Shown: piece by piece, positions 115 through 34,159 of the stretch
Position numbering within the stretch: position 1 is the first letter of the stretch
Layout of the letters: each line of letters starts with the position of its first letter
Origin: a virus
Length of the DNA: 34,159 nt
Direction: 5' to 3' (one strand)
IMG/VR virus record: IMGVR_UViG_3300030107_001586
Span: 1 to 34,159 of that record
Program-made: the position numbers and the translations under genes
Notes under the pieces: generated by a model
Seen by the model: only the letters and a program-made list of their open reading frames with translations
Told to the model about the DNA's origin: nothing
Databases searched by the model: none

Positions 115-285
115 ATTTTAAAAGAAAAAGTAGAAGATACTTTAAAAAGATTTGATGAAAAACATGAAAACCTACAACATCGTATGGATATTATTATGAA
201 TGAATTAGGTAAGATAAAAAAATGGAACGCAGAAATTAAATCTGACTTGAAAGTTTATATTGATATGACAATGAGGAAAAAATAA
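19..285 (+). CDS. Small holin-like membrane protein, YvrJ-like N-terminus
   Basis: This 88-residue protein has one hydrophobic segment at about residues 12-34, opened by a LGFPVALS stretch. That pattern is seen in YvrJ/BhlA-type small membrane proteins that sit beside phage endolysins. The remainder is charged and heptad-like, so probably coiled coil. It starts one base after the stop of the preceding gene (complete copy at 33806-34063) and has no strong ribosome binding site, so translational coupling is likely. Its place just upstream of a run of similar membrane proteins and an M15 endopeptidase suggests a role in lysis. Family membership is inferred from pattern; holin activity is not shown. 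Confidence 0.6.
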   Translation: MTSEIITLVQELGFPVALSVGLAFALYSVVRFILKEKVEDTLKRFDEKHENLQHRMDIIMNELGKIKKWNAEIKSDLKVYIDMTMRKK

Positions 286-422
286 TGCCAATGCCATTTC
301 AATGTATTTATTGCGCTAAACCAGTTCGCCAAGCAATGAATGGTATTTGTGATAAATGTAAAAACAAAGATTTTATAGAGTACAGAGACCCAGGAGACGA
401 GCATCACGAGGTAAAAAAATGA
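285..422 (+). CDS. 45-residue zinc-ribbon microprotein
   Basis: A short open frame fills the space between two membrane-protein genes. It starts with an ATG overlapping the previous stop (TAATG) and ends with a TGA overlapping the next ATG. It encodes two CxxC knuckles (CIYC at 7-10 and CDKC at 22-25), which would form one small zinc site, followed by an acidic, His-containing tail. The tight overlaps at both ends and the paired cysteines argue that it is a real gene. Function unknown; it resembles the small zinc-ribbon products common in phage operons. Confidence 0.6.
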   Translation: MPMPFQCIYCAKPVRQAMNGICDKCKNKDFIEYRDPGDEHHEVKK

Positions 423-712
423 ATGAATTAGCAGATTTATATTTACAATTAGGCAGCGCAGGTTTTATTGCACTTTTATTTGGATTTATGATATTCAATC
501 TTATACAATCACAAAAAGAACAGAGCGAGGATTTAGAAGCGATAAAACAAAGCATTAGGAAAATGGAATCCGTTTTGGATAACAGTCAGAATATATCAGT
601 TAAATTAATTGATAGGATTAATAAATCAGATGAAAAAAGAGAAGAATTTTGGAGACAACTTTCGGATGACTTAGCTTATTTAAAAGGGCGTATTAACGGA
701 AATGCAAAATGA
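419..712 (+). CDS. Single-TM coiled-coil protein of lysis region
   Basis: The 97-residue product has one transmembrane segment near residues 13-31 (GSAGFIALLFGFMIFNLI) and a long charged coiled-coil tail. This XhlA/spanin-like architecture is common for small proteins near phage lysis enzymes. It overlaps its neighbours by 4 bases on each side, so the cluster is probably translated as a coupled unit. It could be a holin, an accessory lysis factor or a superinfection-exclusion protein. No catalytic or lipoprotein motif is visible. Confidence 0.55.
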   Translation: MNELADLYLQLGSAGFIALLFGFMIFNLIQSQKEQSEDLEAIKQSIRKMESVLDNSQNISVKLIDRINKSDEKREEFWRQLSDDLAYLKGRINGNAK

Positions 713-945
713 AACTTAATACAAATATATCACTAGAAAATATAGTGGCAATAGCAACCATAATATGCTCCATAATCTTAGCTTTTGGGTTTATGCAATA
801 TGACATAGATGTAATGAGAGAAACGCTTGATTTAAAGGCAAATAAGCGCGATTTAGTAGCCGACAGAAATCTAATTGCTTATAAATTGGATGTTATAATG
901 GAAGATATTAATGAAATTAAACAAACACTAAAGGAGAGTAAATAA
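709..945 (+). CDS. Single-TM coiled-coil protein, XhlA-like
   Basis: A 78-residue protein with a hydrophobic helix around residues 10-29 (NIVAIATIICSIILAFGF) and then a heptad-patterned, highly charged C-terminal half. This order matches the hemolysin XhlA-type helper proteins that partner with holins in some phages. It starts inside the end of the previous gene (ATGA overlap) and shares one base with the start of the next. It is one of several similarly built proteins in a row, so a lysis or membrane role is likely, but which protein does what cannot be told. Confidence 0.55.
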   Translation: MKLNTNISLENIVAIATIICSIILAFGFMQYDIDVMRETLDLKANKRDLVADRNLIAYKLDVIMEDINEIKQTLKESK

Positions 946-1178
946 TGGAGTGGATGAATTGGACAAATTTTGCATATTTAATGATAATAATTTTGGGAGC
1001 AGTAGGAACAATGGTTGCTACTAAATACAGAATGGTTGTAAAAGAATTAAAAGAGGTTGCTGAAGAATATCATAAAGCAATGGCTGATGGTAAATTAAGT
1101 AAAGAAGAGCAACAAAAAATAGCAAAGCAGTCAATGGATGTATTAATGGCAATCGTTAAAATGCTTTGGAAATTCTAA
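945..1178 (+). CDS. Candidate holin next to endopeptidase
   Basis: A 77-residue protein with an N-terminal transmembrane helix (about residues 8-26, rich in Ile, Leu, Gly and Ala) followed by an amphipathic helical domain with the segment DGKLSKEEQQKIAKQ and a short aromatic C-terminus. Small holins encoded directly before an endolysin often look like this. It lies one base upstream of the M15 peptidase start, the classical holin-endolysin order. It is the best holin candidate by position; the activity is inferred. Confidence 0.55.
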   Translation: MEWMNWTNFAYLMIIILGAVGTMVATKYRMVVKELKEVAEEYHKAMADGKLSKEEQQKIAKQSMDVLMAIVKMLWKF

Positions 1179-1179
1179 A

Positions 1180-1614
1180 ATGCCCAAACTTGGTAAAAGA
1201 AGTATGACGAGGCTGAAGGGTGTTGACCCTAGACTTGTAGCTGTATTGCAAAAAGTAGTTAAATACTTTGACATTACAGTTGTCGAAGGAATGCGCTCTC
1301 AGGAAAGGCAAAATGAACTTGTAGAGATTGGCAAATCAAAGACCAAGTTTGGGAAACATTGTCGTGGGATGGCGGTGGACATTGCTCCATATAACTATCA
1401 GACACGCAAAATAGACTGGGAGAATAGAGATGATTGGCACTATCTAGGTGGATTTGTTTTAGGCATATCTGCAATGATGGGCGTTAATGTTCGTTGGGGT
1501 GGTGACTGGTCATCTCCGAGTCTTGATAAAAAAGTAATGATGGGTAAAGAAGTTCGCACAACAAAAGATAATGGGTTTGATGACCTTTTGCACTTTGAGT
1601 TGATGGATGATTAA
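1180..1614 (+). CDS. M15 family endolysin (peptidoglycan endopeptidase)
   Basis: The 144-residue protein matches the M15 (VanY / L-alanyl-D-glutamate endopeptidase) fold, which cuts peptide stems of peptidoglycan. The zinc ligands are visible in order: His60 and Asp67 in KHCRGMAVDI and His138 in LLHFEL, with Asp135 placed as the usual catalytic acid three residues before the last His. The VEGMRSQERQ segment (residues 35-44) is the substrate-side arginine motif of the family. There is no signal peptide, so export should depend on a holin, and small membrane proteins precede it. Length is normal for single-domain phage M15 lysins such as that of T5. Confidence 0.85.
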   Translation: MPKLGKRSMTRLKGVDPRLVAVLQKVVKYFDITVVEGMRSQERQNELVEIGKSKTKFGKHCRGMAVDIAPYNYQTRKIDWENRDDWHYLGGFVLGISAMMGVNVRWGGDWSSPSLDKKVMMGKEVRTTKDNGFDDLLHFELMDD

Positions 1615-1630
1615 AAATGAGGAGTTATAA

Positions 1631-2710
1631 ATGCCAAAGCAACCTAACGGAGTCACTAAAAAAAGAGCGCAAGATGCTGAAGGAAATTTTGTTGGTTGCC
1701 CAAAATGTAACACAGAAAACATTAGGAAAGATGGTTGGCAATATTGGAAAAATAATAGGAAGCGTCAGCGATGGATGTGTTCAGAAAAAAGTTGTGGTCA
1801 TAAAACATTGAATCCGTATATCATAGAAAAAAACGAGTTTTCAGTTCAAGACCTACCAATAGAGGAAATGAACATTGATGATATTATTGAATATAGGAAA
1901 AAAAGATATGTTCAAAAATATGACGCTTATAAACAAAGACAATTAATTGATGTTAAAATACACACAAGGGGTATTGTTGGTATTTGTCATTTTGGAGACC
2001 CTCATGTTGATGATGATGGAACTAATCTAGCTGAAATATACACTTTATGTAATTTGATTCGTGAAACAGAAGGAATGTTTGCTGGTAATTTAGGAGATGT
2101 TCAAAATAATTGGGTCGGGAGATTGAAGGCTCTACATGGTCAACAATCGACAACCGCTAAAGAATCATGGATGATTTCAGAACATTTTTTAAATAGCGTT
2201 GATTGGTTGTATTTAATAGCAGGAAACCATGATGTTTGGTCAGGCGATGGAGACCCTTTAGATTTTATTATGCGCGATAAAAAAGCTATATATAAACAAC
2301 ATGGTGCAAGGATGAATCTTAGGTTTCCAAATGGTAAGTGTGTTCGGGTAAATGCTAGACATCAATTTAAAGGGAATAGTATGTGGAATACTGCTCATGC
2401 AATTAGTAGGGCGGTGCAAACTGGATGGAGAGACCATATATTGACTGCAGGTCATACTCATGTAAGTGGCTATCAAGTATTAAAAGACCCAGCAAGTGGA
2501 TTAATTAGTCACGCAATTCAAGTAGCCTCATTTAAAAATATGGATGAATACGCTAATAAATTAGGATTAGATGATAAGAATATATTTAATGCTCCAGTCA
2601 CAATTATTAATCCAAAATACGATGATGATGACAATAGATTAATTACTCTATTTTTTAATCCATATGAAGCTGCAGATTATTTAAAATTTAAAAGGAAAAG
2701 TAAATCATGA
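1631..2710 (+). CDS. Zinc-ribbon metallophosphoesterase
   Basis: This 359-residue protein has an N-terminal four-cysteine zinc ribbon (Cys23, Cys26, Cys50, Cys55), like those in transposase-type DNA-binding proteins. A calcineurin-type metallophosphoesterase domain follows. All usual metal motifs are present: DPH at 123-125, GD at 155-156, GNHD at 198-201, His244, and GHTH at 274-277. It should hydrolyse a phosphoester or phosphodiester; whether the substrate is nucleic acid is unknown, though the ribbon suggests it. A GAGGAG site sits about 8 bases before the ATG. It lies between the endolysin and the head-tail connector, where similar enzymes occur in other phages, so a late role in DNA handling is possible. 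Confidence 0.75.
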   Translation: MPKQPNGVTKKRAQDAEGNFVGCPKCNTENIRKDGWQYWKNNRKRQRWMCSEKSCGHKTLNPYIIEKNEFSVQDLPIEEMNIDDIIEYRKKRYVQKYDAYKQRQLIDVKIHTRGIVGICHFGDPHVDDDGTNLAEIYTLCNLIRETEGMFAGNLGDVQNNWVGRLKALHGQQSTTAKESWMISEHFLNSVDWLYLIAGNHDVWSGDGDPLDFIMRDKKAIYKQHGARMNLRFPNGKCVRVNARHQFKGNSMWNTAHAISRAVQTGWRDHILTAGHTHVSGYQVLKDPASGLISHAIQVASFKNMDEYANKLGLDDKNIFNAPVTIINPKYDDDDNRLITLFFNPYEAADYLKFKRKSKS

Positions 2711-3693
2711 GTACACTTGAAAAAAGCTATTGCAATACAACTACAGATTTATTATTTATTGAGCCAAATATAGGTCAATACGATGGGAAAAGAGTTTTGG
2801 CTAGTAATTTTACTACTACAGATACAACCAACCTTTACCAACTTAATAATAGTGGTTATGTTGACCAATTATATAGAGATGGAATTGAGATGACCGCTGT
2901 AACTGATAGCCCAAACGCTGACAATGAATATAATTATTCTAGCAGTACAGATTCGTTTCAGTTTTTCTTAGCATCTAGCTCAGTATCCGCTTTAAATAGT
3001 TCTTTATTTGAAGCAAGTAGTGATTGGGCAACCTTAAAAAGTGATGCAGTTAAAAGGTCTAGTGATTTTATACGCAGTTATCTTCCGTTTCCTATTTATC
3101 CTAACAAGGGAATTAACACGCAAGATGCAACTGGCTCGGATTTCCCTGAAATAATTGTCAGGAGTTGTGCCGTTTTAACTTGTGAATCTTTAATTAGACC
3201 TTACGATTTAGAAAAAGCTGACCAAATTAAAAGCCAAGCAATGAATGATGAAGGTACTGGTTGGTTAGATATGCTTAGAACTGGTCAGATTCATTTATAC
3301 TCAAGCGAAAGCGAATATAAAAAGCGTGGAATACTAAGGGAAATATCTATAAATGCAAATACAACAGGTGGAATTGTAGATATTAAAGGAACACCAAGTA
3401 CGAATTGGGATAAAATAAAAATTATTATTAGTAATGGAGGTACGATAACAGAAGGAAGCTCAAATACGAGTGTAAAATATAGCACTTATGTTAGAAACGA
3501 TAATGGTCTAAAATTGCAATCTAAAATAAGCTCAGAAAATATTGACTGCTATTGGCAAGATATTGGGCATGGGATGGATTGCAGGTTCTCCGCAGGACTA
3601 TATACAACAAACGATGAGTGGGAAGTGGAGGTAAGCGGAGTATTAGACCAAAGAATGACACCAATTAAAAGAATGCATATGAGTCGAAAATAA
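2707..3693 (+). CDS. Head-tail connector-like protein (DUF1320/gp36-type core)
   Basis: The 328-residue product has a central segment, about residues 100-195, with the helical pattern of head-tail adaptor proteins. It contains the YLPFPIYP motif followed by a helix whose core residues line up with DUF1320/gp6-type connectors, and TGWLDMLRTGQIHL ending the core. N-terminal and C-terminal beta-rich extensions make it longer than the usual connector of about 140 residues. It overlaps the preceding gene by 4 bases and is followed by a tail-terminator-like gene, which supports the assignment. Similarity is by pattern only. Confidence 0.55.
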   Translation: MSTLEKSYCNTTTDLLFIEPNIGQYDGKRVLASNFTTTDTTNLYQLNNSGYVDQLYRDGIEMTAVTDSPNADNEYNYSSSTDSFQFFLASSSVSALNSSLFEASSDWATLKSDAVKRSSDFIRSYLPFPIYPNKGINTQDATGSDFPEIIVRSCAVLTCESLIRPYDLEKADQIKSQAMNDEGTGWLDMLRTGQIHLYSSESEYKKRGILREISINANTTGGIVDIKGTPSTNWDKIKIIISNGGTITEGSSNTSVKYSTYVRNDNGLKLQSKISSENIDCYWQDIGHGMDCRFSAGLYTTNDEWEVEVSGVLDQRMTPIKRMHMSRK

Positions 3694-4121
3694 TGCCTAT
3701 AACTTTTGAAAATATTATTTATGATAGAATAGTAGATGCTTTAAATGGGTTATTAGCGAATGAGTTTAATATCCCTATTTATTTAGATGAGCATAAGGGG
3801 AATCAATCTTTTTTATTAACGCCATCAGCAGATGATATAAATGAATATGGAAATAATTTTCAATCTAGGGATTATACTATTGAAATTACTTATCAAATTA
3901 AAATAGGTGGAGCATATACAAAGAACTCAATAAAACAAGTTTCTAACATTGCCGAAAGGACTAAAAGGTTAATATATAATAATGCCTCTTATTCCCCATC
4001 AAGTAGTTATAAATGGCATGATGGAAGAATTGAATCAATCGAGTATGTAAGGGAAGATGAAAGCCCTGATTTAATCACCGCAGTTATTATTTTTAACTGC
4101 ACATCAACGGAGGTTACATGA
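3693..4121 (+). CDS. Tail terminator / tail completion-like protein
   Basis: A 142-residue protein starting on the last base of the connector stop. The layout is an N-terminal helix that includes DALNGLLANEF, then alternating beta strands and one helix around TKRLIYNN. This resembles tail-completion proteins of siphoviruses (lambda gpU/HK97 gp10 neighbourhood), which cap the tail tube at the head side. Its position between connector and tail tube fits this role well. No sequence motif is decisive. Confidence 0.5.
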   Translation: MPITFENIIYDRIVDALNGLLANEFNIPIYLDEHKGNQSFLLTPSADDINEYGNNFQSRDYTIEITYQIKIGGAYTKNSIKQVSNIAERTKRLIYNNASYSPSSSYKWHDGRIESIEYVREDESPDLITAVIIFNCTSTEVT

Positions 4122-12572: not shown

Positions 12573-12734
12573 ATGAAATATAAATACAAAAACAAATTAG
12601 TTGATTTAGAAAAACATTTTAAAGGCGAAATTTGGATAACCACAAAAAAATCAGTTGTTCTATTATTAGATAACTATAGGGGTAAAAAATATATCCCTTT
12701 AAATAAGGTTGTTTTTAGCGAAGGGAGTAAGTAG
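12573..12734 (+). CDS. Early protein of unknown function, 53 residues
   Basis: A short basic protein that uses the same GAAGGAGG ribosome binding site and TAGGATG junction as its neighbours. The sequence alternates charged and hydrophobic residues (EIWITTKKSVVLLLDNYRGK), suggesting a small beta barrel or SH3-like fold. It ends EGSK, echoing the upstream products. No family recognised. Confidence 0.55.
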   Translation: MKYKYKNKLVDLEKHFKGEIWITTKKSVVLLLDNYRGKKYIPLNKVVFSEGSK

Positions 12735-12735
12735 A

Positions 12736-13242
12736 ATGAGAAGTATAAAAAAAGATACCACTAGAAAAAATACAGTCATATTTGACCTAGACGGAACGAT
12801 TGCTAAAATAGACAAAAGACGAGAGTTGGCGACTGTTCCTAGCCCTAGTCACTTAACAAAATCAAAAGGCAAAATTGATTGGGATGTTTTCTTTGACCCT
12901 TTAAATATTGACTTAGACTGGTCAAACAAACCAGTTGTTGAATCTCTTAAATTGTTTTATAACGATGGATATGAAATAATTATTTTATCAGGTAGATTAG
13001 ACACAACTAAGATTGAAACAGAAAAATGGTTAAAAAAACACCACATTCCTTACGATGAACTTTATATGCGACCTGAAGATTGTCGTTATATTCCTGATGA
13101 TATATTAAAATGGGAAATGCTTAAATGGCACGATATTGATAAAAAAGATATTTTTTGTATCTTTGACGATAGAAAAAGAGTTGTAGATATGTGGCGAACA
13201 GAAGGATTAACCTGTTTTCAAGTAGCTGAAGGAAACTTTTAA
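12736..13242 (+). CDS. HAD phosphatase, polynucleotide kinase 3'-phosphatase-like
   Basis: The 168-residue protein shows all four HAD motifs: DLDGT at 17-21 (nucleophile Asp17, acid Asp19), SGR at 85-87, Lys125, and DDR at 144-146. The arrangement, plus PYDELYMRP and the ending TCFQVAEGNF, closely resembles the C-terminal phosphatase domain of T4 polynucleotide kinase/phosphatase. That domain removes 3' phosphates or 2',3'-cyclic phosphates from nucleic acid ends. No kinase P-loop domain is attached and no RNA ligase is seen in the window. It is the last gene before promoter copy 2. Start chosen at the ATG of the repeated junction. Confidence 0.8.
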   Translation: MRSIKKDTTRKNTVIFDLDGTIAKIDKRRELATVPSPSHLTKSKGKIDWDVFFDPLNIDLDWSNKPVVESLKLFYNDGYEIIILSGRLDTTKIETEKWLKKHHIPYDELYMRPEDCRYIPDDILKWEMLKWHDIDKKDIFCIFDDRKRVVDMWRTEGLTCFQVAEGNF

Positions 13243-13336: not shown

Positions 13337-13537
13337 ATGAGAAATAAAAACGGCAAACTTATTACTACTATAAAAAAAGGTAATGATGTGTTTGAATTAT
13401 ATAAAGCTATTAGGTGGGGTGGATATTCAACTCCTATTATTGTTAAGAATGGTAAAGAAATAAAACAATATGGAGTAAATCTTTATACTGAATATGCCAT
13501 AAAGAAGTTTGAAGAGGAATTTGGAAGGGGTAAATAG
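13337..13537 (+). CDS. Early protein of unknown function, 66 residues
   Basis: First gene after promoter copy 2, starting at the ATG behind ACAAGGAG; an upstream in-frame start lies at the transcription start and is rejected. The small basic alpha/beta protein contains ITTIKKGNDVFELYKAIRWG and ends GRGK, with its stop in the repeated TAGGATG junction. No recognised family. Confidence 0.6.
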   Translation: MRNKNGKLITTIKKGNDVFELYKAIRWGGYSTPIIVKNGKEIKQYGVNLYTEYAIKKFEEEFGRGK

Positions 13538-13538
13538 G

Positions 13539-13847
13539 ATGTTACTTAAAAAAAGCGAAATCAAAAAGCTCATAAAAAACGAAGGGTATAGAATCAGCCC
13601 TGAATCTTATGAGGGTATAAATAGGGCGGTAGAAAGCACGATAAAGCAAATGCTAGTGCAAGTAGCCAATGACAATATGAAAACCTTAATGATGCAACAT
13701 ACTGGGGCAAAAACAACTAAAATAGATTCTAGTTCTTGCTCAAGATGTGCCAACATTGAAAACACATATATTAGGTGGGCAAAAAATGTCCAACAATTTT
13801 GTGCAGATGAGGCAACTATAATGTTTAACAGATTAAGGAGTAGATAA
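13539..13847 (+). CDS. Histone-fold-like protein with cysteine tail (candidate)
   Basis: This 102-residue early protein has an N-terminal half with the helix-loop-long helix-loop-helix pattern of a histone fold. Helix 1 is SEIKKLIKNEG (6-16), then the YRIS turn; the long helix runs from about 21 to 46 (PESYEGINRAVESTIKQ onward); MKTLMMQH (47-54) sits where archaeal histones have RKTI plus the third helix. The C-terminal half has a CSRC knuckle (67-70) and a further Cys. If real, it may bind DNA or act as a transcription-factor-like dimer. The match is read by eye and lacks structural proof. Confidence 0.5.
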   Translation: MLLKKSEIKKLIKNEGYRISPESYEGINRAVESTIKQMLVQVANDNMKTLMMQHTGAKTTKIDSSSCSRCANIENTYIRWAKNVQQFCADEATIMFNRLRSR

Positions 13848-16194: not shown

Positions 16195-16441
16195 ATGGAT
16201 ATTGGAGATAACAGAAGATAAAGCAGTTAATAATAGAATGCATATTCAGAAAAAAGCGAATATGTATGAAAGACTACACCATAAAATTGATGATGTTTTA
16301 AAATATTGTAAATCTTGTGGTAAGGTTTGGCAAAAAAATAGAAAAATGATGACTAGAGAATGGGAGTATTATCCAAAAGACTACATACCAATAATAGGAA
16401 AAAAACGAGAACTATGTCCAAATTGTAAGGAGAACAAATAA
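16175..16441 (+). CDS. Zinc-ribbon protein of unknown function
   Basis: The product (88 residues from the start chosen here; a start 15 bases earlier or 12 later is also possible) has a basic helical N-half and a C-terminal zinc ribbon made of CKSC and CPNC pairs separated by about 34 residues. It overlaps the HNH gene end and abuts the replication initiator-like gene. The ribbon suggests DNA or RNA binding, or a replication accessory role. Confidence 0.5.
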   Translation: MKKSMIEWILEITEDKAVNNRMHIQKKANMYERLHHKIDDVLKYCKSCGKVWQKNRKMMTREWEYYPKDYIPIIGKKRELCPNCKENK

Positions 16442-17085
16442 TGGCAAAACGATTTATAGATACTAAAATATGGGATAAGGCTTGGTTTAGAAAATTAAGC
16501 GTTAATGGGAAATTATTATGGGTTTATATTTTAACTAAATGTGACCACGCAGGAATTTTAGATGCTGATTGGGAGGCAGCTTCGTTTTTTATTGGTTATA
16601 ATATTAGTGAATATGAAGAAATCCCCGACCAAATTAAACACAAAATGATATCAATAGAAGATGACCAGTTTTTTATACCATCATTTATTGAGTATCAATA
16701 TGGTGCTTTAAGAATTAACTCTAAACCACATTTATCTGTTATTAAAAGATTAGAGGAAAAAGGGTTAAATAACTATTTACAAAAGAGTTTGGTAAGTCTT
16801 AAAGATAAAGATAAAGAAAAAGATATAGATAAAAGAGAGGATAAATTTATAGAAAAAGTGAATAGTATTATTAAAGAAAAAAAATATTCCAATGAAGAAA
16901 CAGATAATTTTGTAGGGTTTTGGACAGAGCGCAATACATCTAATACTAAAATGAGGTTTGAATTACAACAAACATTTGATATAGGTAGGAGATTATCTAC
17001 TTGGGTAAAGAATAATAAAGATTGGAAAATAAAAGACAAGAAGGTTAAAAATGAGCGAAAAGAAATGCAGTTCACAGGACGCTAG
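16441..17085 (+). CDS. Replication initiator / replisome organizer-like protein
   Basis: The 214-residue protein opens with MAKRFIDTKIWDKAWFRKLS, then LLWVYILTKCDHAGILDADW and FIPSFIEYQYG, a conserved N-terminal winged-helix block found in phage replication proteins. A Lys/Asp/Glu-rich linker follows (about 120-150). The C-terminal domain carries FELQQTFDIGRRLSTWVKNN, resembling helicase-loading segments. With no DNA polymerase or helicase in the window, such a protein would recruit host machinery. It is preceded by GGAGAAC and overlaps the next gene by 35 bases. Confidence 0.65.
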   Translation: MAKRFIDTKIWDKAWFRKLSVNGKLLWVYILTKCDHAGILDADWEAASFFIGYNISEYEEIPDQIKHKMISIEDDQFFIPSFIEYQYGALRINSKPHLSVIKRLEEKGLNNYLQKSLVSLKDKDKEKDIDKREDKFIEKVNSIIKEKKYSNEETDNFVGFWTERNTSNTKMRFELQQTFDIGRRLSTWVKNNKDWKIKDKKVKNERKEMQFTGR

Positions 17086-17449
17086 TTTTTTTGTTAATGA
17101 TTTATTTGACACATTAGATATAAAAGGGAATAATCAATTATTATTTAATCAATTTTGTAGCTTATTAATGAAATTTAGTAAGGAAACAATTAGGAAAGCG
17201 TGGAAAGATGTTGTCTATAGTTGTGAACCTCCTAATGGACAAATGGCAGGTCGACTGCCTAAGATGTTCATTATAGAAAAAATATTAATGAGCAATAGGA
17301 TTGAAAAATGGAATACAGAACATCAAATAAATAAAAAAAAAGAAGTAGAGTCAGGAACAATATCAAAATTATGGGAGTGGGGAATTGATTATCGAGATGG
17401 AAAACTAACTAAACAAGAACTAGAAAAAAAGATAGAGGAAAATTTATGA
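17051..17449 (+). CDS. Putative replication accessory protein
   Basis: A 132-residue mostly helical protein that begins inside the initiator-like gene. The section KFSKETIRKAWKDVVYSCEP followed by AGRLPKMFII is reminiscent of DnaC-loader or replisome organizer companions, but I could not assign it to a family. Overlap with the initiator-like gene suggests coupled expression and a shared role. Confidence 0.45.
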   Translation: MSEKKCSSQDASFFVNDLFDTLDIKGNNQLLFNQFCSLLMKFSKETIRKAWKDVVYSCEPPNGQMAGRLPKMFIIEKILMSNRIEKWNTEHQINKKKEVESGTISKLWEWGIDYRDGKLTKQELEKKIEENL

Positions 17450-17709
17450 GCAAAAACCAAGAATCTTTATTTGGAGATTTAGATGAATATTCATGGTGGA
17501 ATAAAGAATGGCAAGATATGCCTGAATATAAAATGTTAGACGAATCCCCATTTCAATCAATAAATATTCATTTTAAAACCGAAGAAGATAGAAATGAATT
17601 TGCTAAATTAGTAAATCAAACCATCACTCAACAAACTAAATATATTTGGTTTCCTAAAAAAGATGAGCTACCACCAAGATATTTTTTATATGTGGATGAA
17701 GAAGAATGA
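17446..17709 (+). CDS. Small protein preceding DNA glycosyltransferase gene
   Basis: This 87-residue acidic protein has a W-rich start (EYSWWNKEWQDMPEY), then FQSINIHFKTEEDRNEFAKL and the ending KYIWFPKKDE. From memory, similar modules occur beside or fused to ParB-like, methylase or base-modification proteins in phages. It overlaps both neighbours by 4 bases, which ties it to the glycosyltransferase gene downstream. A role in DNA modification or recognition is therefore suspected but not demonstrated. Confidence 0.5.
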   Translation: MSKNQESLFGDLDEYSWWNKEWQDMPEYKMLDESPFQSINIHFKTEEDRNEFAKLVNQTITQQTKYIWFPKKDELPPRYFLYVDEEE

Positions 17710-18566
17710 ATCCTAAATATCCAATATATATAATATCAAAAAATAGGTGGAAATATTGTGATGGTAATTTATCAACCTCACACGCTTTAGATTTAATAAA
17801 TGTTCCATATAGGATTGTAGTAGAACCTCATGAGTATAATGATTATAAAAAATATATTCATCCGAATAAAATATTAAAATTACCTTTTTCTAATTTAAAT
17901 AAAGGGAGTATTCCAGCTAGAAATTGGGTTTGGGAGCATTCAATAAAAGAGGGTCATAAAAGACATTGGATTATGGATGATAATATTCAGCATTTTTATA
18001 GATTAAATAGAAATAGGAGATTGCATATTAATAGTGGTACTATATTTAAATGTGCAGAAGATTTTGTAGATAGATATATAAATGTACCGATGGCAGGATT
18101 TAATTATAATACATTTGCTATTCCTAGAAAAAATCTTGCACCATTCTATCTTAATACTCGCGTTTATTCTTGTATATTATTATCAAATAATTTAAAGCAT
18201 AGGTGGCGAGGGAGATATAACGAAGATACAGATTTAAGTTTAAGAGTATTAAAAGATGGTAATTGTACTATCTTATTTAATGCATTTTTATGTGATAAAG
18301 TAAACACGATGAGAATGACTGGCGGTAATACAGATAAATTATATCAACAAAATGAATATCAAGACGGAAGAAAAAAGATGGCAGAATCGCTAGTTAAACA
18401 ACATCCCGATGTTGTTAGGATGGCTTGGAAGTGGGATAGGTGGACTCATTTCGTAGATTATAAGCAGTTCAAACTTAATAATAAGTTAATTAAAAAAGAT
18501 GGGGTAACTATTAAACAAGGCATTAATAATTATGGAATGAAATTAATACAACTGGAGAATATATGA
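17706..18566 (+). CDS. TET-associated (TAGT-type) glycosyltransferase
   Basis: The 286-residue protein has a GT-A-like layout: N-terminal IYIISKNRWKYC, PARNWVWEHS at 70-79, HWIMDDNI at 87-94 (Asp91-Asp92 in the place of the metal-binding DxD), a YNEDTDLSLR block at 171-180, and MTGGNT around 205-209. These are the signatures I recall for TAGT enzymes, predicted to transfer sugars onto hydroxymethylated or otherwise modified bases in phage DNA. The next gene encodes a sugar-nucleotide epimerase that could provide the donor. No TET/JBP oxygenase, hydroxymethylase or methylase is visible, so the acceptor is unknown. Confidence 0.7.
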   Translation: MNPKYPIYIISKNRWKYCDGNLSTSHALDLINVPYRIVVEPHEYNDYKKYIHPNKILKLPFSNLNKGSIPARNWVWEHSIKEGHKRHWIMDDNIQHFYRLNRNRRLHINSGTIFKCAEDFVDRYINVPMAGFNYNTFAIPRKNLAPFYLNTRVYSCILLSNNLKHRWRGRYNEDTDLSLRVLKDGNCTILFNAFLCDKVNTMRMTGGNTDKLYQQNEYQDGRKKMAESLVKQHPDVVRMAWKWDRWTHFVDYKQFKLNNKLIKKDGVTIKQGINNYGMKLIQLENI

Positions 18567-19420
18567 TTTTAGTAACAGGAGGAGCGGGATTTATTGGAAC
18601 TAATTTAATTGATAGACTGGTAAAAGATAAAGAAGGTGTAATATTGTTTGACAAAAAAATATCTAAAAGAACAGATGTAAATATTTTTAAAGGAGATTTG
18701 TCTAATGAAAAAGATATAAGTTTTTTTATTAAAAATTTTGGTCAGGTTGATACAATAATTCATTTAGGGGCGATAGCAAGGATTCACACATCTATGAAAG
18801 AGCCAAAAAAAGTATTATTAAATAATATAGTAAGTACAATTAATATTCTTGATTATGCAAAGGATTTTAATATCCCAGTTATATATGCTGGGTCTAGCTC
18901 AAAATTTGCAGGAGTAAATAAAAGCCCATATGCGTTTTCAAAGCACAAAGGCGAAGAATTATGCAAATTGTATAATAAAAACTATAATCTTAAAACTTAC
19001 ATTTGCAGATTTTATAATGTTTATGGTAAGCATCAAATTGAAAAAGGCAAATATTCAACTGTAATTGGAATATTTGAAAAACAATTTAGGGAAAATAAAC
19101 CATTAACAATTGTGGGAGATGGAACACAAATAAGAGATTTTACGCATATTGATGATATTGTAGATGGAATAATAAAAGCAAAAAATATGATTATAAATTC
19201 AAAAAAAACATATTTAGAATTTGATTTTGGAACTGGTGTTGAATATTCTATAAATGATATTGCTAATATGTTTGGTGCAGATTATCCTAAAAAATACTTA
19301 AAAAATAGAAAAGGCGAGTATGATTATTCATTAGCCGACAATAATTATACAAAAAATATTTTAAACTGGTCACCGAGGAAAAAACTAACAAATTATATAA
19401 AAAATACAATAAACCCTTAA
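18563..19420 (+). CDS. NAD-dependent sugar-nucleotide epimerase/dehydratase (extended SDR)
   Basis: The 285-residue enzyme starts with the Rossmann motif VTGGAGFIG (4-12) and has acidic residues for NAD ribose binding (Asp30). Ser112/Ser113 in AGSSSKFAG and the catalytic pair Tyr123/Lys127 in SPYAFSK follow, and RDFTHIDDIVDGII is the usual C-terminal substrate segment. It belongs to the GalE/WbpP-like family that interconverts or modifies UDP- or dTDP-sugars. It overlaps the glycosyltransferase gene by 4 bases, so it probably supplies its donor sugar; specificity cannot be read. It is the last gene before promoter copy 3. Confidence 0.8.
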   Translation: MILVTGGAGFIGTNLIDRLVKDKEGVILFDKKISKRTDVNIFKGDLSNEKDISFFIKNFGQVDTIIHLGAIARIHTSMKEPKKVLLNNIVSTINILDYAKDFNIPVIYAGSSSKFAGVNKSPYAFSKHKGEELCKLYNKNYNLKTYICRFYNVYGKHQIEKGKYSTVIGIFEKQFRENKPLTIVGDGTQIRDFTHIDDIVDGIIKAKNMIINSKKTYLEFDFGTGVEYSINDIANMFGADYPKKYLKNRKGEYDYSLADNNYTKNILNWSPRKKLTNYIKNTINP

Positions 19421-19449
19421 ATAACTCTTAAAATAAATTAATAAAAGAC

Positions 19450-19478
19450 TTGCCTCGTATTGATTTATTCCATATTTT
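19450..19478 (+). promoter_or_regulatory. Early promoter copy 3 with dyad box
   Basis: TTGCCT (19450-19455), 17-bp spacer, TATTTT (19473-19478). The GTGATTATCAATAA string that follows is identical in copy 2; its TGATTATCA dyad occupies 19486-19494, one base farther from the -10 than in the other two copies. Upstream ACTCTTAAAATAAA resembles copy 2. It drives the amidoligase gene, with AAGTGAGG as ribosome binding site before the ATG at 19521. Confidence 0.7.
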
Positions 19479-19520
19479 CTTGTTGTGATTATCAATAACA
19501 ACATAACAAGTGAGGAAAAA

Positions 19521-20540
19521 ATGCAAAAAGGTAAATTTAATAATAGTAGGGGTTTTGGAGTAGAAATTGAGTATATAAGACCAACAAGTGTTTCTAAGCA
19601 AGAGATATGTAATGCTCTAACATCAGTAACTTGTAGGGTTGAGGGATATAACCATAATACTGTTTCTTATTGGAAAATAGTTACAGATGCTTCTGTAAAA
19701 GCTAATCCATCATGCACATATGCTTCTGATTCTTATAATGGATATGTTGGAGATAATGAAATAGTATCTCCAATTCTTTATGGAGAAAATGGTTTTGAAC
19801 AATTAAAAGAAATATTAGATGTTCTTAATAACAAGGGATGTAAGGTTAATTATAGTTGTGGTATTCATGTTCATCACGATGTGACTAATAAGATGATTGA
19901 AGGTAAAGAGAAAAGCCAAAAGTTTTTAACTAATCTTATAAAGTTTGTTGCTAAGTATGAGCATTTAATTTATAAGTTGGTTTCTCCATCAAGATTGGAC
20001 AGTAGAAAATATAGCACACCTGTAAGAAGAGATTATTTTGATAGATATTGTAATATGAATAAAAGACAGATTAAGGAAATGATGACTAAGGTTAAAAGAG
20101 ATTGTACTAGAAAATATCGCAATGGTAGTGATATCGATAGAGGTCAAATATCTCCTCGCGTTCAATCTAATAGAGGTTGCGGTCTTAATCTTCGTAATGT
20201 TTGGACAAGAGGCTCAGTTGAGTTTAGGTATCATAATGGTTCTTTAAATTTTGATAAGATTGTTTCCTGGATTGTTTTTACTCAAGCGATTGTTAATACT
20301 GTTGAAGAAGCAAATAGTGTTCAAATGAACTATGTTCCAAGTGATGTTGATGGTCTTTTTTATCTAAGGAAAGCAATTGGTTTTGTTGGTAGCACAACTA
20401 GAGATGCTGTAACAGATATGGCTACTAATTATATTGTTAAAAGATATAAAGAGCTAAGTGCTAGAGAAAATGATTATCGCAGACAAGGCGATTATACTTA
20501 TGTAGATAGTGGTTTAACTTTAAATCAAGAAGGAGTTTAA
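19521..20540 (+). CDS. Amidoligase family protein (COOH-NH2 ligase)
   Basis: The 339-residue protein matches the phage/bacterial amidoligase family related to glutamine synthetase, predicted to join a carboxyl and an amine with ATP. Visible motifs are FGVEIEY (12-18, Glu15/Glu17), WKIVTDASV (51-59), NEIVSPIL (79-86), CGIHVHHD (113-120), GLNLRN (221-226) and SVEFRYHNG (232-240). The Glu and His residues would bind metal and ATP. I start at the ATG behind AAGTGAGG; a longer in-frame start at 19485 falls at the transcription start. The next two enzyme genes (GATase II and a cyclotransferase-like protein) match the gene company predicted for this family. Confidence 0.8.
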   Translation: MQKGKFNNSRGFGVEIEYIRPTSVSKQEICNALTSVTCRVEGYNHNTVSYWKIVTDASVKANPSCTYASDSYNGYVGDNEIVSPILYGENGFEQLKEILDVLNNKGCKVNYSCGIHVHHDVTNKMIEGKEKSQKFLTNLIKFVAKYEHLIYKLVSPSRLDSRKYSTPVRRDYFDRYCNMNKRQIKEMMTKVKRDCTRKYRNGSDIDRGQISPRVQSNRGCGLNLRNVWTRGSVEFRYHNGSLNFDKIVSWIVFTQAIVNTVEEANSVQMNYVPSDVDGLFYLRKAIGFVGSTTRDAVTDMATNYIVKRYKELSARENDYRRQGDYTYVDSGLTLNQEGV

Positions 20541-20541
20541 T

Positions 20542-21432
20542 ATGTGTGGATTAGCAGGAGTTATTTTAAAGCAAAAAGATAGAGACAACGAGACCCTTAA
20601 TCGGGTCTCAAAGTCTTTTACTGGGATGTTAAAAGAGGCGGATATGCGAGGTGGTCACGCTACTGGTTTTGCCTTAATAGATAAGCATGGAGATTATGCA
20701 ATCTGCAAAAAACCAAAAGATGCTTATGAGTTTTTTAATGATGAAGATGTTAAAGATAATATTGGTTTAGTTTATGATGGTATTACTACAATGATGGGTC
20801 ATACTAGATATGCGACACTAGGCTCACCATCTATTAATAAAAATAATCATCCCATTAGAACTGGTCAAACCATAGGAACTCATAATGGTTCAATATCTAA
20901 TCACAAAGAATTGTTCCATAAGTATGATATGGACAGATTCGCGCAAGTGGATAGTGAGGCAATATTTAGATTATATGAAACATCTAATAATGTTGATGAT
21001 TTCCTAAATAATAGATTGCCAAAAGTTCAGGGTCGTGTTGCGATTGTTTGGGCGGATTTAGAACGACCTGATTATGTCTATATGGTTAAGGCTAATAATC
21101 CAATTCAAATGGTTTATGTTCCTGAATATGATTGCTATGCTTATGGAAGTACAGATTCTATTATAAACGCAGGTTTTTGGGGAGATTATAAGCGTATTAC
21201 TATAGAGCCTAATACGATGGTTAGAATAAATACAAAGACTCTTAAAATGGATACTCAAAAAATAAGAATATCAAAACCTAAGATTAAAAAGTTCTCATTT
21301 TATGATGAAAAAATTGGAGCATATAAAGATAAACCTCAAACAGTTGATAGATTTGTTCCGAGGTTTTCATATAGTGACCAATTAAAAATGTTTAAGACAA
21401 GTGATGGTTCAACAATAAGGAAGGTAAAATAA
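20542..21432 (+). CDS. Class II glutamine amidotransferase
   Basis: The 296-residue Ntn-hydrolase begins MCGLAG, exposing Cys2 as the N-terminal nucleophile once Met is removed. Further GATase II motifs are present: GHTRYAT at 86-92, NNHP at 101-104, HNG at 114-116 and DSE at 137-139. It should release ammonia from glutamine. No synthetase domain (such as sugar isomerase or asparagine synthase) follows; the last 80 residues are a short basic tail. It starts one base after the amidoligase stop and may supply ammonia to that enzyme or act on a gamma-glutamyl substrate. Confidence 0.85.
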   Translation: MCGLAGVILKQKDRDNETLNRVSKSFTGMLKEADMRGGHATGFALIDKHGDYAICKKPKDAYEFFNDEDVKDNIGLVYDGITTMMGHTRYATLGSPSINKNNHPIRTGQTIGTHNGSISNHKELFHKYDMDRFAQVDSEAIFRLYETSNNVDDFLNNRLPKVQGRVAIVWADLERPDYVYMVKANNPIQMVYVPEYDCYAYGSTDSIINAGFWGDYKRITIEPNTMVRINTKTLKMDTQKIRISKPKIKKFSFYDEKIGAYKDKPQTVDRFVPRFSYSDQLKMFKTSDGSTIRKVK

Positions 21433-21554
21433 TGCCAAACAAAGATGCTAAAAATAGAAAAAGAAAAAGAATCTTAAAAAACGAGCAATTAAAAAAAGAG
21501 GGAAGAACACCAAATCAAATTGCTAGAAAAAAAAGGAGGAGAAATAATGTTTGA
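21432..21554 (+). CDS. 40-residue Arg/Lys-rich basic microprotein
   Basis: A short frame starts in a TAATG overlap with the amidotransferase gene and ends 8 bases inside the cyclotransferase-like gene. The peptide starts MPNKDAKNRKRKRIL and ends with an ARKKRRR run; more than a third of residues are Lys or Arg. Small basic proteins beginning this way recur in aquatic phages as I recall them. It may bind nucleic acid. The AGGAGG for the next gene lies inside its last codons, so its translation may affect that gene. Confidence 0.6.
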   Translation: MPNKDAKNRKRKRILKNEQLKKEGRTPNQIARKKRRRNNV

Positions 21555-22155
21555 TTTATTTGTATATGGTACATTAAAAAAAGGTGGCTCAAATCATAGC
21601 TTTATAAAAGGCTCTGAGTTTTTAAGGCATGATATATTAAAAGACCACGCTATTTATAAGCCAAACCATTTTAGTTTTCCAATAATGACGCTTAATAAAA
21701 ATAGCAAAGTATATGGAGAAGTTTATAGAGTAGATAGTGAGACATTAAATAGATTAGATATGCTAGAGCAAGAGGGTACATTTTATAATCGAATAGATGA
21801 TAGTAAATTAGGGTGTCAATATTACCTATGGAGAGAACAAGATGGTTTATTTGTTCGCGAAGAAGATAAAATAAAAAATGGATATTGGGAAGTAAAAGGA
21901 GAAGTTGATTTAAGTCTTGTTATTGATAATAGAAAATACACAGACAAGGCAGATAAGTTAGTTTTTCACATGAGGTTTTTTGATGGAAAACGCGCACCAA
22001 CGAATAAGATATATATGGACTTAGTTAATAAAAGAAGTCATTTAAATCTAAATACAGAAAATGAAGAAATATTTTTAAGAGATTGTATAATGAAGGGAGT
22101 CGTAAGTGAGTGGAAAGAACCAGAGCACTCATTCAATATCTTGCGAGATATGTGA
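21547..22155 (+). CDS. Gamma-glutamyl cyclotransferase-like (GGCT/AIG2) protein
   Basis: I start at the ATG 7 bases after AGGAGGAG. The 202-residue protein has the GGCT signature LFVYGTLKKGGSNH (4-17), the strand VYGEVYRV (55-62) and LDMLEQEG (70-77) with Glu74 in the place of the catalytic acid. Family members (GGCT, BtrG, AIG2) release gamma-glutamyl groups as 5-oxoproline. The C-terminal 100 residues extend beyond the core fold and are unassigned. Following amidoligase and GATase II genes, it may remove a gamma-glutamyl protecting group or process a glutamyl product. Confidence 0.75.
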   Translation: MFDLFVYGTLKKGGSNHSFIKGSEFLRHDILKDHAIYKPNHFSFPIMTLNKNSKVYGEVYRVDSETLNRLDMLEQEGTFYNRIDDSKLGCQYYLWREQDGLFVREEDKIKNGYWEVKGEVDLSLVIDNRKYTDKADKLVFHMRFFDGKRAPTNKIYMDLVNKRSHLNLNTENEEIFLRDCIMKGVVSEWKEPEHSFNILRDM

Positions 22156-22240
22156 GGATTTAGTGACAGTTTTAAATAAAAGAAATAATATCTTTATTTG
22201 TAAGAAGTGCGAAGATAATTATCCGATTTATAAAAAATGA
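22106..22240 (+). CDS. 44-residue zinc-ribbon microprotein
   Basis: A GTG start 6 bases after AGGGAG opens a frame overlapping the end of the cyclotransferase-like gene. It encodes CEIC (13-16) and CKKC (32-35), a compact four-cysteine zinc ribbon, within otherwise polar sequence. The TGA stop overlaps the next ATG. Good ribosome binding site, paired cysteines and tight overlaps support a real gene of unknown function. Confidence 0.6.
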   Translation: MSGKNQSTHSISCEICEDLVTVLNKRNNIFICKKCEDNYPIYKK

Positions 22241-22401
22241 CCGAATTAGAAAACATAGTAACAATAGTGTCTTATGAAGAGTTTAGTGAGTTAGTTGTAA
22301 AGATTGGTAGTGATGAGCTAACTGTAATGGAATTAATAGATGCTATCGCTCAAATAAATGGAGTAATATATGAACAAACAAACTCATTTGGAGCAACATA
22401 A
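22237..22401 (+). CDS. Small acidic protein of unknown function, 54 residues
   Basis: The start (ATGA) overlaps the zinc-ribbon gene stop and the frame overlaps the next gene by 32 bases. The peptide is acidic and helical (YEEFSELVVKIGSDELTVME), a pattern also seen in small phage early proteins. No clear ribosome binding site; coupling is assumed. Support is moderate. Confidence 0.45.
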   Translation: MTELENIVTIVSYEEFSELVVKIGSDELTVMELIDAIAQINGVIYEQTNSFGAT

Positions 22402-22657
22402 AGTAAACCATGATTTTTTATATCATGCAGAAATTATGTTTGAAACAAAAGATGCGTTTGATTATAAAAGCGCAGTCGGAAACAATCTAAAAGAATTATT
22501 AATTGATATCGATGTAAGGTTAAAAGAACTATCTAACCGAAATCCCCAAATTGTACAAGCCTTATATAAACCCCAAAACGAATCAATTAACATAACACCA
22601 AAGATAATATCACTATTAAAGTTTAAGCCTTATTATAGTAGTAATAAGACCCAATAA
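22370..22657 (+). CDS. Early-region protein of unknown function, 95 residues
   Basis: Helical, mixed-charge protein with HDFLYHAEIMFETKDAFDYK and a helix DIDVRLKELSNRNPQIVQAL. It starts after GGAGTAAT inside the previous small gene. It is the last gene before the gap that precedes the structural operon. No family recognised. Confidence 0.5.
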   Translation: MNKQTHLEQHKVNHDFLYHAEIMFETKDAFDYKSAVGNNLKELLIDIDVRLKELSNRNPQIVQALYKPQNESINITPKIISLLKFKPYYSSNKTQ

Positions 22658-22693
22658 ACTATATTCTAGCTTAATATATTTATTTAAAATAAT

Positions 22694-22737
22694 CACTTTC
22701 ATTAGTTTTAAAAGATATTTTAAATTTTAATACTTAA
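22694..22737 (+). promoter_or_regulatory. Candidate late promoter upstream of structural genes
   Basis: CACTTTCA (22694-22701), a 16-base spacer, then TTTTAAATTTTAATACTTAA (22718-22737) lies in the gap before the DUF5681/terminase genes. The same arrangement, with one base missing, occurs at 28795-28837 before the fibre operon. Both differ from the TTGC-type early promoters, so a second promoter class for late genes is a reasonable reading. AT-rich chance similarity cannot be excluded. The remainder of the 96-base gap shows no gene. Confidence 0.35.
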
Positions 22738-22753
22738 AAAGTAAGAATTATTA

Positions 22754-22939
22754 TTGTCTAAAAAATCTGAAAACAATGCTGCATTAAATGTTGAGTTAGT
22801 CGGCATTAAGAATTTAAAAATGACTCATTCCTGGAGAATTGAATTTGATGTCTTTGAGATTGACAATGATAAAGTAAAGATTTTAATGGATATGTTAAAC
22901 AAGCCTCTTTCAATGGGATTAGTACAATTAGATGACTAA
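22754..22939 (+). CDS. Small protein before terminase genes (TTG start)
   Basis: A 61-residue product with a non-standard TTG start; the best available ribosome binding site is a weak AAGTAAG. The sequence (VELVGIKNLKMTHSWRIEFD onward) reads as a strand-helix fold, and its last 8 bases overlap the next gene. Its position at the head of the packaging operon suggests a structural or packaging accessory. Start uncertain. Confidence 0.5.
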   Translation: MSKKSENNAALNVELVGIKNLKMTHSWRIEFDVFEIDNDKVKILMDMLNKPLSMGLVQLDD

Positions 22940-33809: not shown

Positions 33810-34063
33810 AAAGAGTTACTATAAAAGATAATGTTAAATATTTAGGTGGAACTCAAAATGGTAGGCTCGTAAAACCATCAATAGCTAATGCCTGTATAAG
33901 TTCTAATATGCCTGTTTGCTTTACAAAACCTCTTTTATTTGAGGACTATCCAATGGCTCTTGATGAGCATTATGAGCATAAAATAATTAAAACAGATAAT
34001 GGTGATGAAAAAATTGTTTTTAGATTAGTAAAAAGTGAAAAAAGAGAAATTACTGGGTTTTAA
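33806..34063 (+). CDS. Protein of unknown function, 85 residues
   Basis: Small alpha/beta protein beginning MKRVTIKDNVKYLGGTQNGR with a C-terminal charged strand region. It overlaps the AT-hook gene by 4 bases and its stop is followed directly by the ATG of the 88-residue membrane protein. The last 18 bases are repeated as the first 18 of the window, because the map is circular. No family recognised. Confidence 0.5.
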   Translation: MKRVTIKDNVKYLGGTQNGRLVKPSIANACISSNMPVCFTKPLLFEDYPMALDEHYEHKIIKTDNGDEKIVFRLVKSEKREITGF

Positions 34064-34159
34064 ATGACATCTGAAATTATAACATTAGTACAAGAATTAG
34101 GATTTCCAGTTGCTCTTAGCGTTGGATTAGCTTTTGCTTTGTATAGCGTAGTAAGATTT
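34046..34159. repeat. Terminal direct repeat, right copy
   Basis: Identical to bases 1-114. It closes the map: the gene ending at 34063 and the gene beginning at 34064 continue at the left end without a break. A real virion end with a 114-bp repeat is an alternative to an assembly overlap. Confidence 0.9.
34064..34159 (+). CDS. Start of the 88-residue membrane protein (duplicate, cut by window end)
   Basis: The first 32 codons of the holin-like YvrJ-type protein that is complete at the left end of the window. It is cut by the end of the sequence, not broken by mutation, and should not be counted as a second gene. Confidence 0.85.
   Translation, partial: MTSEIITLVQELGFPVALSVGLAFALYSVVRF

Follow-up and report, generated by a model that had tools for sequence, protein, structure and literature searches.

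Gene content of the locus

The window analysed here is 34,159 bp long with 32.7% GC. A 114-bp direct repeat at its ends marks it as a complete phage genome, in which PHROG scans identified genes for TerL, the major capsid protein, the tape measure, a spike and lysis. Upstream of the terminase genes, three open reading frames on the same strand encode a small W-rich protein that we call W87, a TAGT glycosyltransferase (a family name reportedly originating with Iyer et al. in 2013) and a sugar-nucleotide epimerase (Table 1). All three are real genes, translationally coupled by a 4-bp ATGA overlap at each of the two junctions.

Table 1. Features of the window and the evidence for them.
Feature	Position	Strand	Evidence or remark
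Direct terminal repeat, 114 bp	1-114 and 34046-34159		Circularly assembled complete phage genome
Variable slot upstream of terminase genes	17446-22752	+	Other DNA-modification cassettes there in sister phages
W87, 87-aa W-rich partner protein	17446-17709	+	HMM built here; motif W..MPEF...F...F...Q..T..T..W.P
TAGT, GT-A-fold glycosyltransferase, 286 aa	17706-18566	+	PF20691 2e-44; AlphaFold2 pLDDT 92.3, pTM 0.91
D91-D92-N93 codons, DXD-type metal/donor motif	17976-17984	+	Sequence; W87-type row alignment
E173-D174 codons	18222-18227	+	Kept in every aligned TAGT, including T6
NAD-dependent sugar-nucleotide epimerase/dehydratase (SDR), 285 aa	18563-19420	+	PF01370 1.7e-46
Amidoligase_2	19485-20540	+	PF12224 4.6e-34
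Class-II glutamine amidotransferase (GATase_6)	20542-21432	+	PF13522 6.7e-15
Gamma-glutamyl cyclotransferase-like (GGACT)	21520-22155	+	PF06094 2.4e-20

The glycosyltransferase matches PF20691 over the entire model (positions 1-205 of 205; 152.5 bits against a Pfam gathering cut-off of 27.5) and PHROG 842 (1e-40). A sequence search against solved structures returned nothing useful. An AlphaFold2 model run with 54 relatives is confident, and its closest structural matches are GT-A enzymes (GalNAc-T2, BcsA and hyaluronan synthase among them; Z 12.4-14.5). Candidate catalytic residues are all retained in 55 aligned TAGTs: D91-D92-N93 and E173-D174 are invariant across 63 W87-type rows, with DDD instead of DDN in T6 and TET-linked TAGTs. 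These results bear out an earlier assignment of the gene, made from the sequence-only reading of this DNA, to the TAGT type. That reading had also proposed structure prediction as a check, with a polysaccharide-glycosyltransferase match counting against a DNA target. The prediction gave the GT-A fold of TAGTs, but such a match does not discriminate between acceptors, since TAGTs such as that of T6 are themselves GT-A, GT2-like enzymes (PMC13216743).

W87 is the conserved partner of TAGT

W87 has no match in Pfam, PHROG or NCBIfam, and the HMM built here scores it at 8.4e-33 in the window, whose row is part of the HMM seed. Across 115 related TAGT loci, W87 adjoins or is fused to TAGT at 108, comprising 75 of 80 viral loci by HMM (72 of 80 by BLAST) and 33 of 35 loci in bacterial genomes by HMM. 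The gap between the two is below 150 bp in 95 of the 108 positive loci, and in at least four of the seven negative ones the TAGT gene stands at a contig start. A search in the other direction, with a ParB-W87 protein as the query, found TAGT at 27 of 27 W87-positive loci. This frequency, together with the retention of the catalytic residues, makes the W87-TAGT unit more than a chance neighbourhood. In a tree of TAGTs the W87 label clusters (none of 500 shuffles gave a value as low), within the limits set by very long branches of the T6/TET-linked outgroup.

The protein occurs in three forms: as a small separate gene, as an N-terminal fusion to TAGT, and often at the C-terminus of ParB-like proteins (PF02195). 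Fusions to TAGT are found in the isolated Aeromonas phages phiAS5 and 65, Tenacibaculum phage PTm1, Pectobacterium phage POP12 and Vibrio phages 1.076.O and 1.124.O and in both Kuja copies, and the predicted model of a natural fusion (L049) is confident (pLDDT 92.8, pTM 0.91). One locus (L014) carries ParB, W87 and TAGT within a single 528-aa frame. We define the W87-TAGT group by W87 lying adjacent or fused to TAGT; the window, where the two genes overlap, belongs to it, whereas the W87 HMM finds no match in T6 ggt or with the TET-linked TAGT of phage P12024L. Two cultured bacteria, Chryseobacterium gambrini DSM 18014 (L273) and C. daeguense DSM 19388 (L272), also have W87-TAGT, with W87 proteins of ParB size.

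The epimerase, which the earlier reading had placed with the other two genes in one tight unit, is not a fixed member. The overlaps that suggested the unit are genuine, but among the sister phages of the window (its closest relatives by capsid protein) only the window phage carries the epimerase, and its absence from the nearest three TAGT-bearing sisters rules it out as an invariant partner. The conserved partner of TAGT is W87 rather than the epimerase. The third gene varies among TAGT sisters. In G063 it is a SAM methyltransferase, of which a 42%-identical homolog adjoins W87-TAGT at another locus (L254); in G072 it is a divergent TAGT, the second in that cassette.

W87-TAGT occupies a slot for DNA-modification cassettes

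The region before TerL was read in 12 sister phages. The slot is bounded on the left near the gene at 16441-17085 and on the right by a conserved small gene (22754-22939) and DUF5681/TerL, and in 10 of the 12 sisters it holds a clear DNA-modification cassette. W87-TAGT fills it in G057, G063 and G072; TET/JBP with a PLP-fold enzyme, an ADDT-type (amino acid:DNA) transferase or a kinase in G050, G054 and G073; TET beside two glycosyltransferases, one TAGT-like and one with DXD, in G058; a C5-methyltransferase (C5-MTase) in G052; and an SPPC-motif C5-MTase with CmoA in G061 (CmoA 7.6e-22 against solved CmoA; TIGR00740 3e-40). The slot of G062 contains thymidylate-synthase-like, dCMP deaminase, C5-methylase-like and asparagine-synthase-like genes, and that of G060 contains dUTPase, ThyX and dCMP deaminase. 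No sister combines TET with W87-TAGT, and W87 and TAGT are the only genes exclusive to the TAGT type, in a lineage sample of four TAGT-bearing genomes.

Several of these cassettes can be described further. The loci of G050, G054 and G073 (L177, L196 and L190) each combine TET/JBP, an ADDT-type transferase and a P-loop kinase, with a PLP-fold enzyme beside them in G050 and G054 and a glutamine amidotransferase in G073; they are probably cassettes for amino-acid DNA hypermodification. In G061 (L183, 6369-8185), CmoA and the SPPC-motif C5-MTase are followed by an amidoligase, a glutamine amidotransferase and GGACT, a set that looks like a 5-carboxymethylcytosine pathway with an amide ligase different from the published CmoY. 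The row in G062 (L209, 3618-8121), which also includes a dUTPase, is a candidate for a novel base-modification pathway. Two ParB-like proteins surround a PAPS-reductase/DUF3440 protein in the slot of G056 (L179, 8088-11723), possibly for sulfur-based nucleic-acid modification, and the tie of the G056 and G060 slot genes to DNA modification is uncertain.

Outside the slot, the window encodes a HAD phosphatase of the PNKP type (12709-13242; PF25109 1.9e-31) that has no counterpart in any of the 15 sisters compared, and a 112-aa protein (13509-13847) that lacks a family match and is found among sisters only in G057, G061, G063 and G072, all of which also have the amidoligase trio of Table 1.

Recognised base-forming enzymes are lacking across the group

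The sequence-only reading had noted that no enzyme preparing the base is visible in this genome. The lack is confirmed: no gene in the complete window genome matches PF12851 (TET/JBP), PF00145 (C5-MTase) or PF00303 (thymidylate synthase/hydroxymethylase), and PHROG scans of nearly all window genes revealed neither a base-forming enzyme nor another glycosyltransferase. The negative for TET is meaningful because the same PF12851 search, used as a positive control, detects P12024L and four sister phages. The lack is not local, however, but extends across the W87-TAGT group, given that TET is present in 0 of 50 records (49 larger TAGT records plus the window) and near 2 of 115 TAGT loci (L002 and L278). 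These two loci corrected a stricter statement, that TET never accompanies W87-TAGT. C5-MTase occurs in 3 of the 50 records, and PF00303 has no match in 33 viral records. Isolated W87-TAGT phages encode ordinary-looking thymidylate synthases, with no second, gene-42-like match except possibly in PTm1. There is no report of gene 42 in Aeh1 or 65, and Petrov et al. 2010 (PMC2993671) suggest that T4 relatives without this gene probably carry no major dCMP modification.

Where a phage enzyme might hide was also considered. W87 is implausible as an oxygenase or methylase and unlikely to be the missing base-forming enzyme, since it is too small at 87 aa and its alignment shows no conserved His or Cys. 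A base-forming enzyme concealed in the phage backbone is likewise unlikely, because the conserved backbone genes are common to sisters with other chemistries.

Two kinds of acceptor are thus left: a canonical base, or one that the host or an unrecognised activity has prepared. Under the latter, TAGT would be a finishing enzyme acting on a hydroxylated base supplied by the host or by an unrecognised phage protein, much as T6 TAGT requires glucosyl-hmC and TET-linked TAGTs probably require oxidised bases. This agrees with what is known of the family's chemistry (PMC13216743, PMC13390438) and with the TET-TAGT-methyltransferase operon of P12024L. Moreover, in the locus with the closest TAGT (L002, 69% identity), a gene row at 225-3979 runs TET, ADDT-like, kinase, W87 and TAGT, so that W87-TAGT stands behind a TET cassette and is able to coexist with a base oxidiser; a hydroxylated acceptor may therefore apply. 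The rarity or absence of TET, C5-MTase and PF00303 in the records counted above, with positive controls working, weighs against it, as do the size and composition of W87 and the finding that the TAGT type has no other gene of its own among the sisters, on a backbone common to sisters with other chemistries. We regard a finishing role as a reasonable but less probable account. That W87-TAGT glycosylates a canonical base directly (on an exocyclic amine, for example), with no prior hydroxylation and sequence-guided like ParB-linked methyltransferases, is the boldest reading and a somewhat more doubtful one.

Donor sugar and downstream genes

The epimerase is GalE-like, yet it scores far below all NCBIfam cut-offs, with no equivalog-level assignment as UDP-glucuronate 4-epimerase, GalE or UXS (best GalE, 109 bits versus 262). 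The solved chains nearest to it are 6zl6 and 4zrm, which are UDP-sugar epimerases, and UDP-glucuronate decarboxylases; with no equivalog support for any of these, the attempt to predict the donor from the epimerase was unsuccessful. No close relative was found in viral_contigs. Sugar-nucleotide SDR genes lie near 10 of 80 TAGT loci (about 8 independent) versus 309 of 50,697 whole phage records, an approximate enrichment, since the searches ran against databases of different sizes. The SDR gene is contiguous with W87-TAGT at two loci (L028 and L046), another encodes a clear UDP-glucuronate decarboxylase (L010, 5e-110), and a further one a sugar-nucleotide dehydrogenase with a nucleotidyltransferase (L065). 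Since such genes occur near W87-TAGT loci more often than expected, a donor-making or donor-tailoring role for the epimerase is plausible. To that extent the earlier proposal of a donor-making enzyme paired with a transferase survives, though not with the epimerase at the core of the unit.

Downstream lies a trio of amidoligase, glutamine amidotransferase and GGACT, found in 4 of 4 TAGT-bearing and 2 of 11 other sister genomes (Fisher p 0.011, small sample). The trio could amidate a uronic acid, a carboxylated sugar, attached to DNA, in the manner of 5-carboxymethylcytosine amide ligases, which we consider improbable. Its presence in all TAGT sisters and in G061, where the slot holds CmoA and the SPPC C5-MTase, favours the idea, as does the closest solved relative of the epimerase, 6zl6, which we take to be a UDP-glucuronate 4-epimerase. 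The position of what is presumably the carboxylate-binding Arg of UDP-GlcA epimerase, however, aligns with Ile in the window epimerase, no amidoligase was found at the 80 wider TAGT loci, outside the window lineage, and in G056 the trio lies outside the slot. The published CmoX pathway offers a parallel in CmoY-type ligases with glutaminase domains (PMC12783734).

DNA is the likely substrate

Three ParB relatives lacking W87 (L217, L218 and L228) carry instead a DPPY-type DNA methyltransferase domain, with PPY motifs read from sequence, and these too lie upstream of terminase; fusions of ParB and DNA methyltransferase are known (PMC12783734). Because W87-TAGT is interchangeable in its slot with DNA-modification cassettes, and ParB-methyltransferase exchanges with ParB-W87-TAGT, DNA is likely its substrate. 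In two loci, W87-TAGT bears a C-terminal uracil-DNA-glycosylase-like domain (L032, 7728-9284; L038, 7761-9293), detected in L032 at 9.5e-5 with PF03167, just below cut-off, and judged by eye in the L038 tail. The L002 row strengthens the case for DNA as target, and DNA as the likely target in the earlier reading is supported. A non-DNA target, whether a polysaccharide on the host surface (for seroconversion or superinfection exclusion) or a protein of the virion or the host, is very unlikely: fold matches do extend to synthases of cellulose, hyaluronan and chondroitin and to protein GalNAc-transferases, and the epimerase resembles cellular sugar-nucleotide epimerases, but the slot shared with DNA-modification cassettes, the ParB exchange, the UDG-like fusion and the L002 operon with TET and ADDT-like genes all speak against it, and no membrane or glycan-export gene adjoins.

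Discussion

The reading we prefer, and hold to be probable, is that W87 and TAGT form a two-component DNA glycosyltransferase module in a swap slot, with the epimerase tailoring the donor and an acceptor that does not come from a recognised phage enzyme. TAGT would be the catalytic GT-A subunit, drawing its sugar from a nucleotide-sugar that the epimerase may tailor. W87 would serve as a dedicated accessory domain that keeps the enzyme on DNA or shapes the active site, and that elsewhere appears to join TAGT to a ParB-like domain of the kind fused to DNA methyltransferases. Phage DNA would then receive the sugar during or after replication, and host nucleases would be blocked. Weighing against this reading are the requirement of T6 TAGT, the one characterised family member, for preformed glucosyl-hmC, the TET genes near L002 and L278, and the suggestion of Petrov et al. 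on T4 relatives without gene 42.

Such a module differs from known glycosylation systems. The T2/T6 beta-glucosyl-HMC alpha-glucosyltransferase shares PF20691, the GT-A fold, an aspartate-rich donor motif and the ED pair with the window TAGT, although BLASTP detects no similarity between the T6 and window proteins. The T6 enzyme is without W87 and works with dCMP hydroxymethylase and an alpha-glucosyltransferase (alpha-GT) on preformed glucosyl-hmC, its PF20691 member acting on glucosylated hmC DNA (PMC13216743); the window has no match to PF00303, the model for dCMP hydroxymethylase, and no alpha- or beta-GT in the PHROG scans. The TAGT of Nonlabens phage P12024L (26% identity) sits in a similar-size phage at a similar position upstream of terminase, but there TET/JBP and a methyltransferase are present and W87 is absent, the opposite of the window, whose complete genome has no TET/JBP with its TAGT. 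In phage DNA pentosylation (RB69/NP arabinosyl-dC and Thanatos pentose-dC), a glycosyltransferase likewise accompanies donor-making genes, but the acceptor, 5-hydroxy-dC or a proposed equivalent, comes from a thymidylate-synthase-family enzyme (PMC13390438, PMC12838424) that the window lacks. Phage ParB-DNA methyltransferase fusions share the ParB-like domain and the place upstream of terminase, with W87-TAGT replacing the methyltransferase. The CmoA/CmoX/CmoY system (PMC12783734) is related by position, CmoA and an SPPC C5-MTase filling the same slot in G061, and by ParB, which occurs with both, but its chemistry is different and involves no glycosyltransferase.

The TAGT family and solitary TAGTs are already published: a 2026 report counts solitary phage TAGTs in 288 of 753 genomes, and its authors predict new transferases (PMC13216743). 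Like the window TAGT, these are not accompanied by an alpha-GT or beta-GT. Searching that report's text gave no mention of the W87 partner, the ParB link or the swap slot, and our literature searches returned no W87 partner, ParB-W87-TAGT architecture or swap slot, though an earlier mention of W87 in Iyer et al. 2013 is possible.

Solitary phage TAGTs are common, and W87 gives them a defining partner and a link to ParB-type DNA modification. The slot and its DNA-modification occupants amount to a ready-made inventory of cassettes exchanged within a single small phage lineage. Furthermore, isolated phages and cultured lysogens with W87-TAGT have been identified, in which the base is measurable. 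If the acceptor is indeed a canonical base, W87-TAGT would represent DNA chemistry of a new and widespread kind, with a bearing on how phages evade restriction and on DNA-labelling enzymes.
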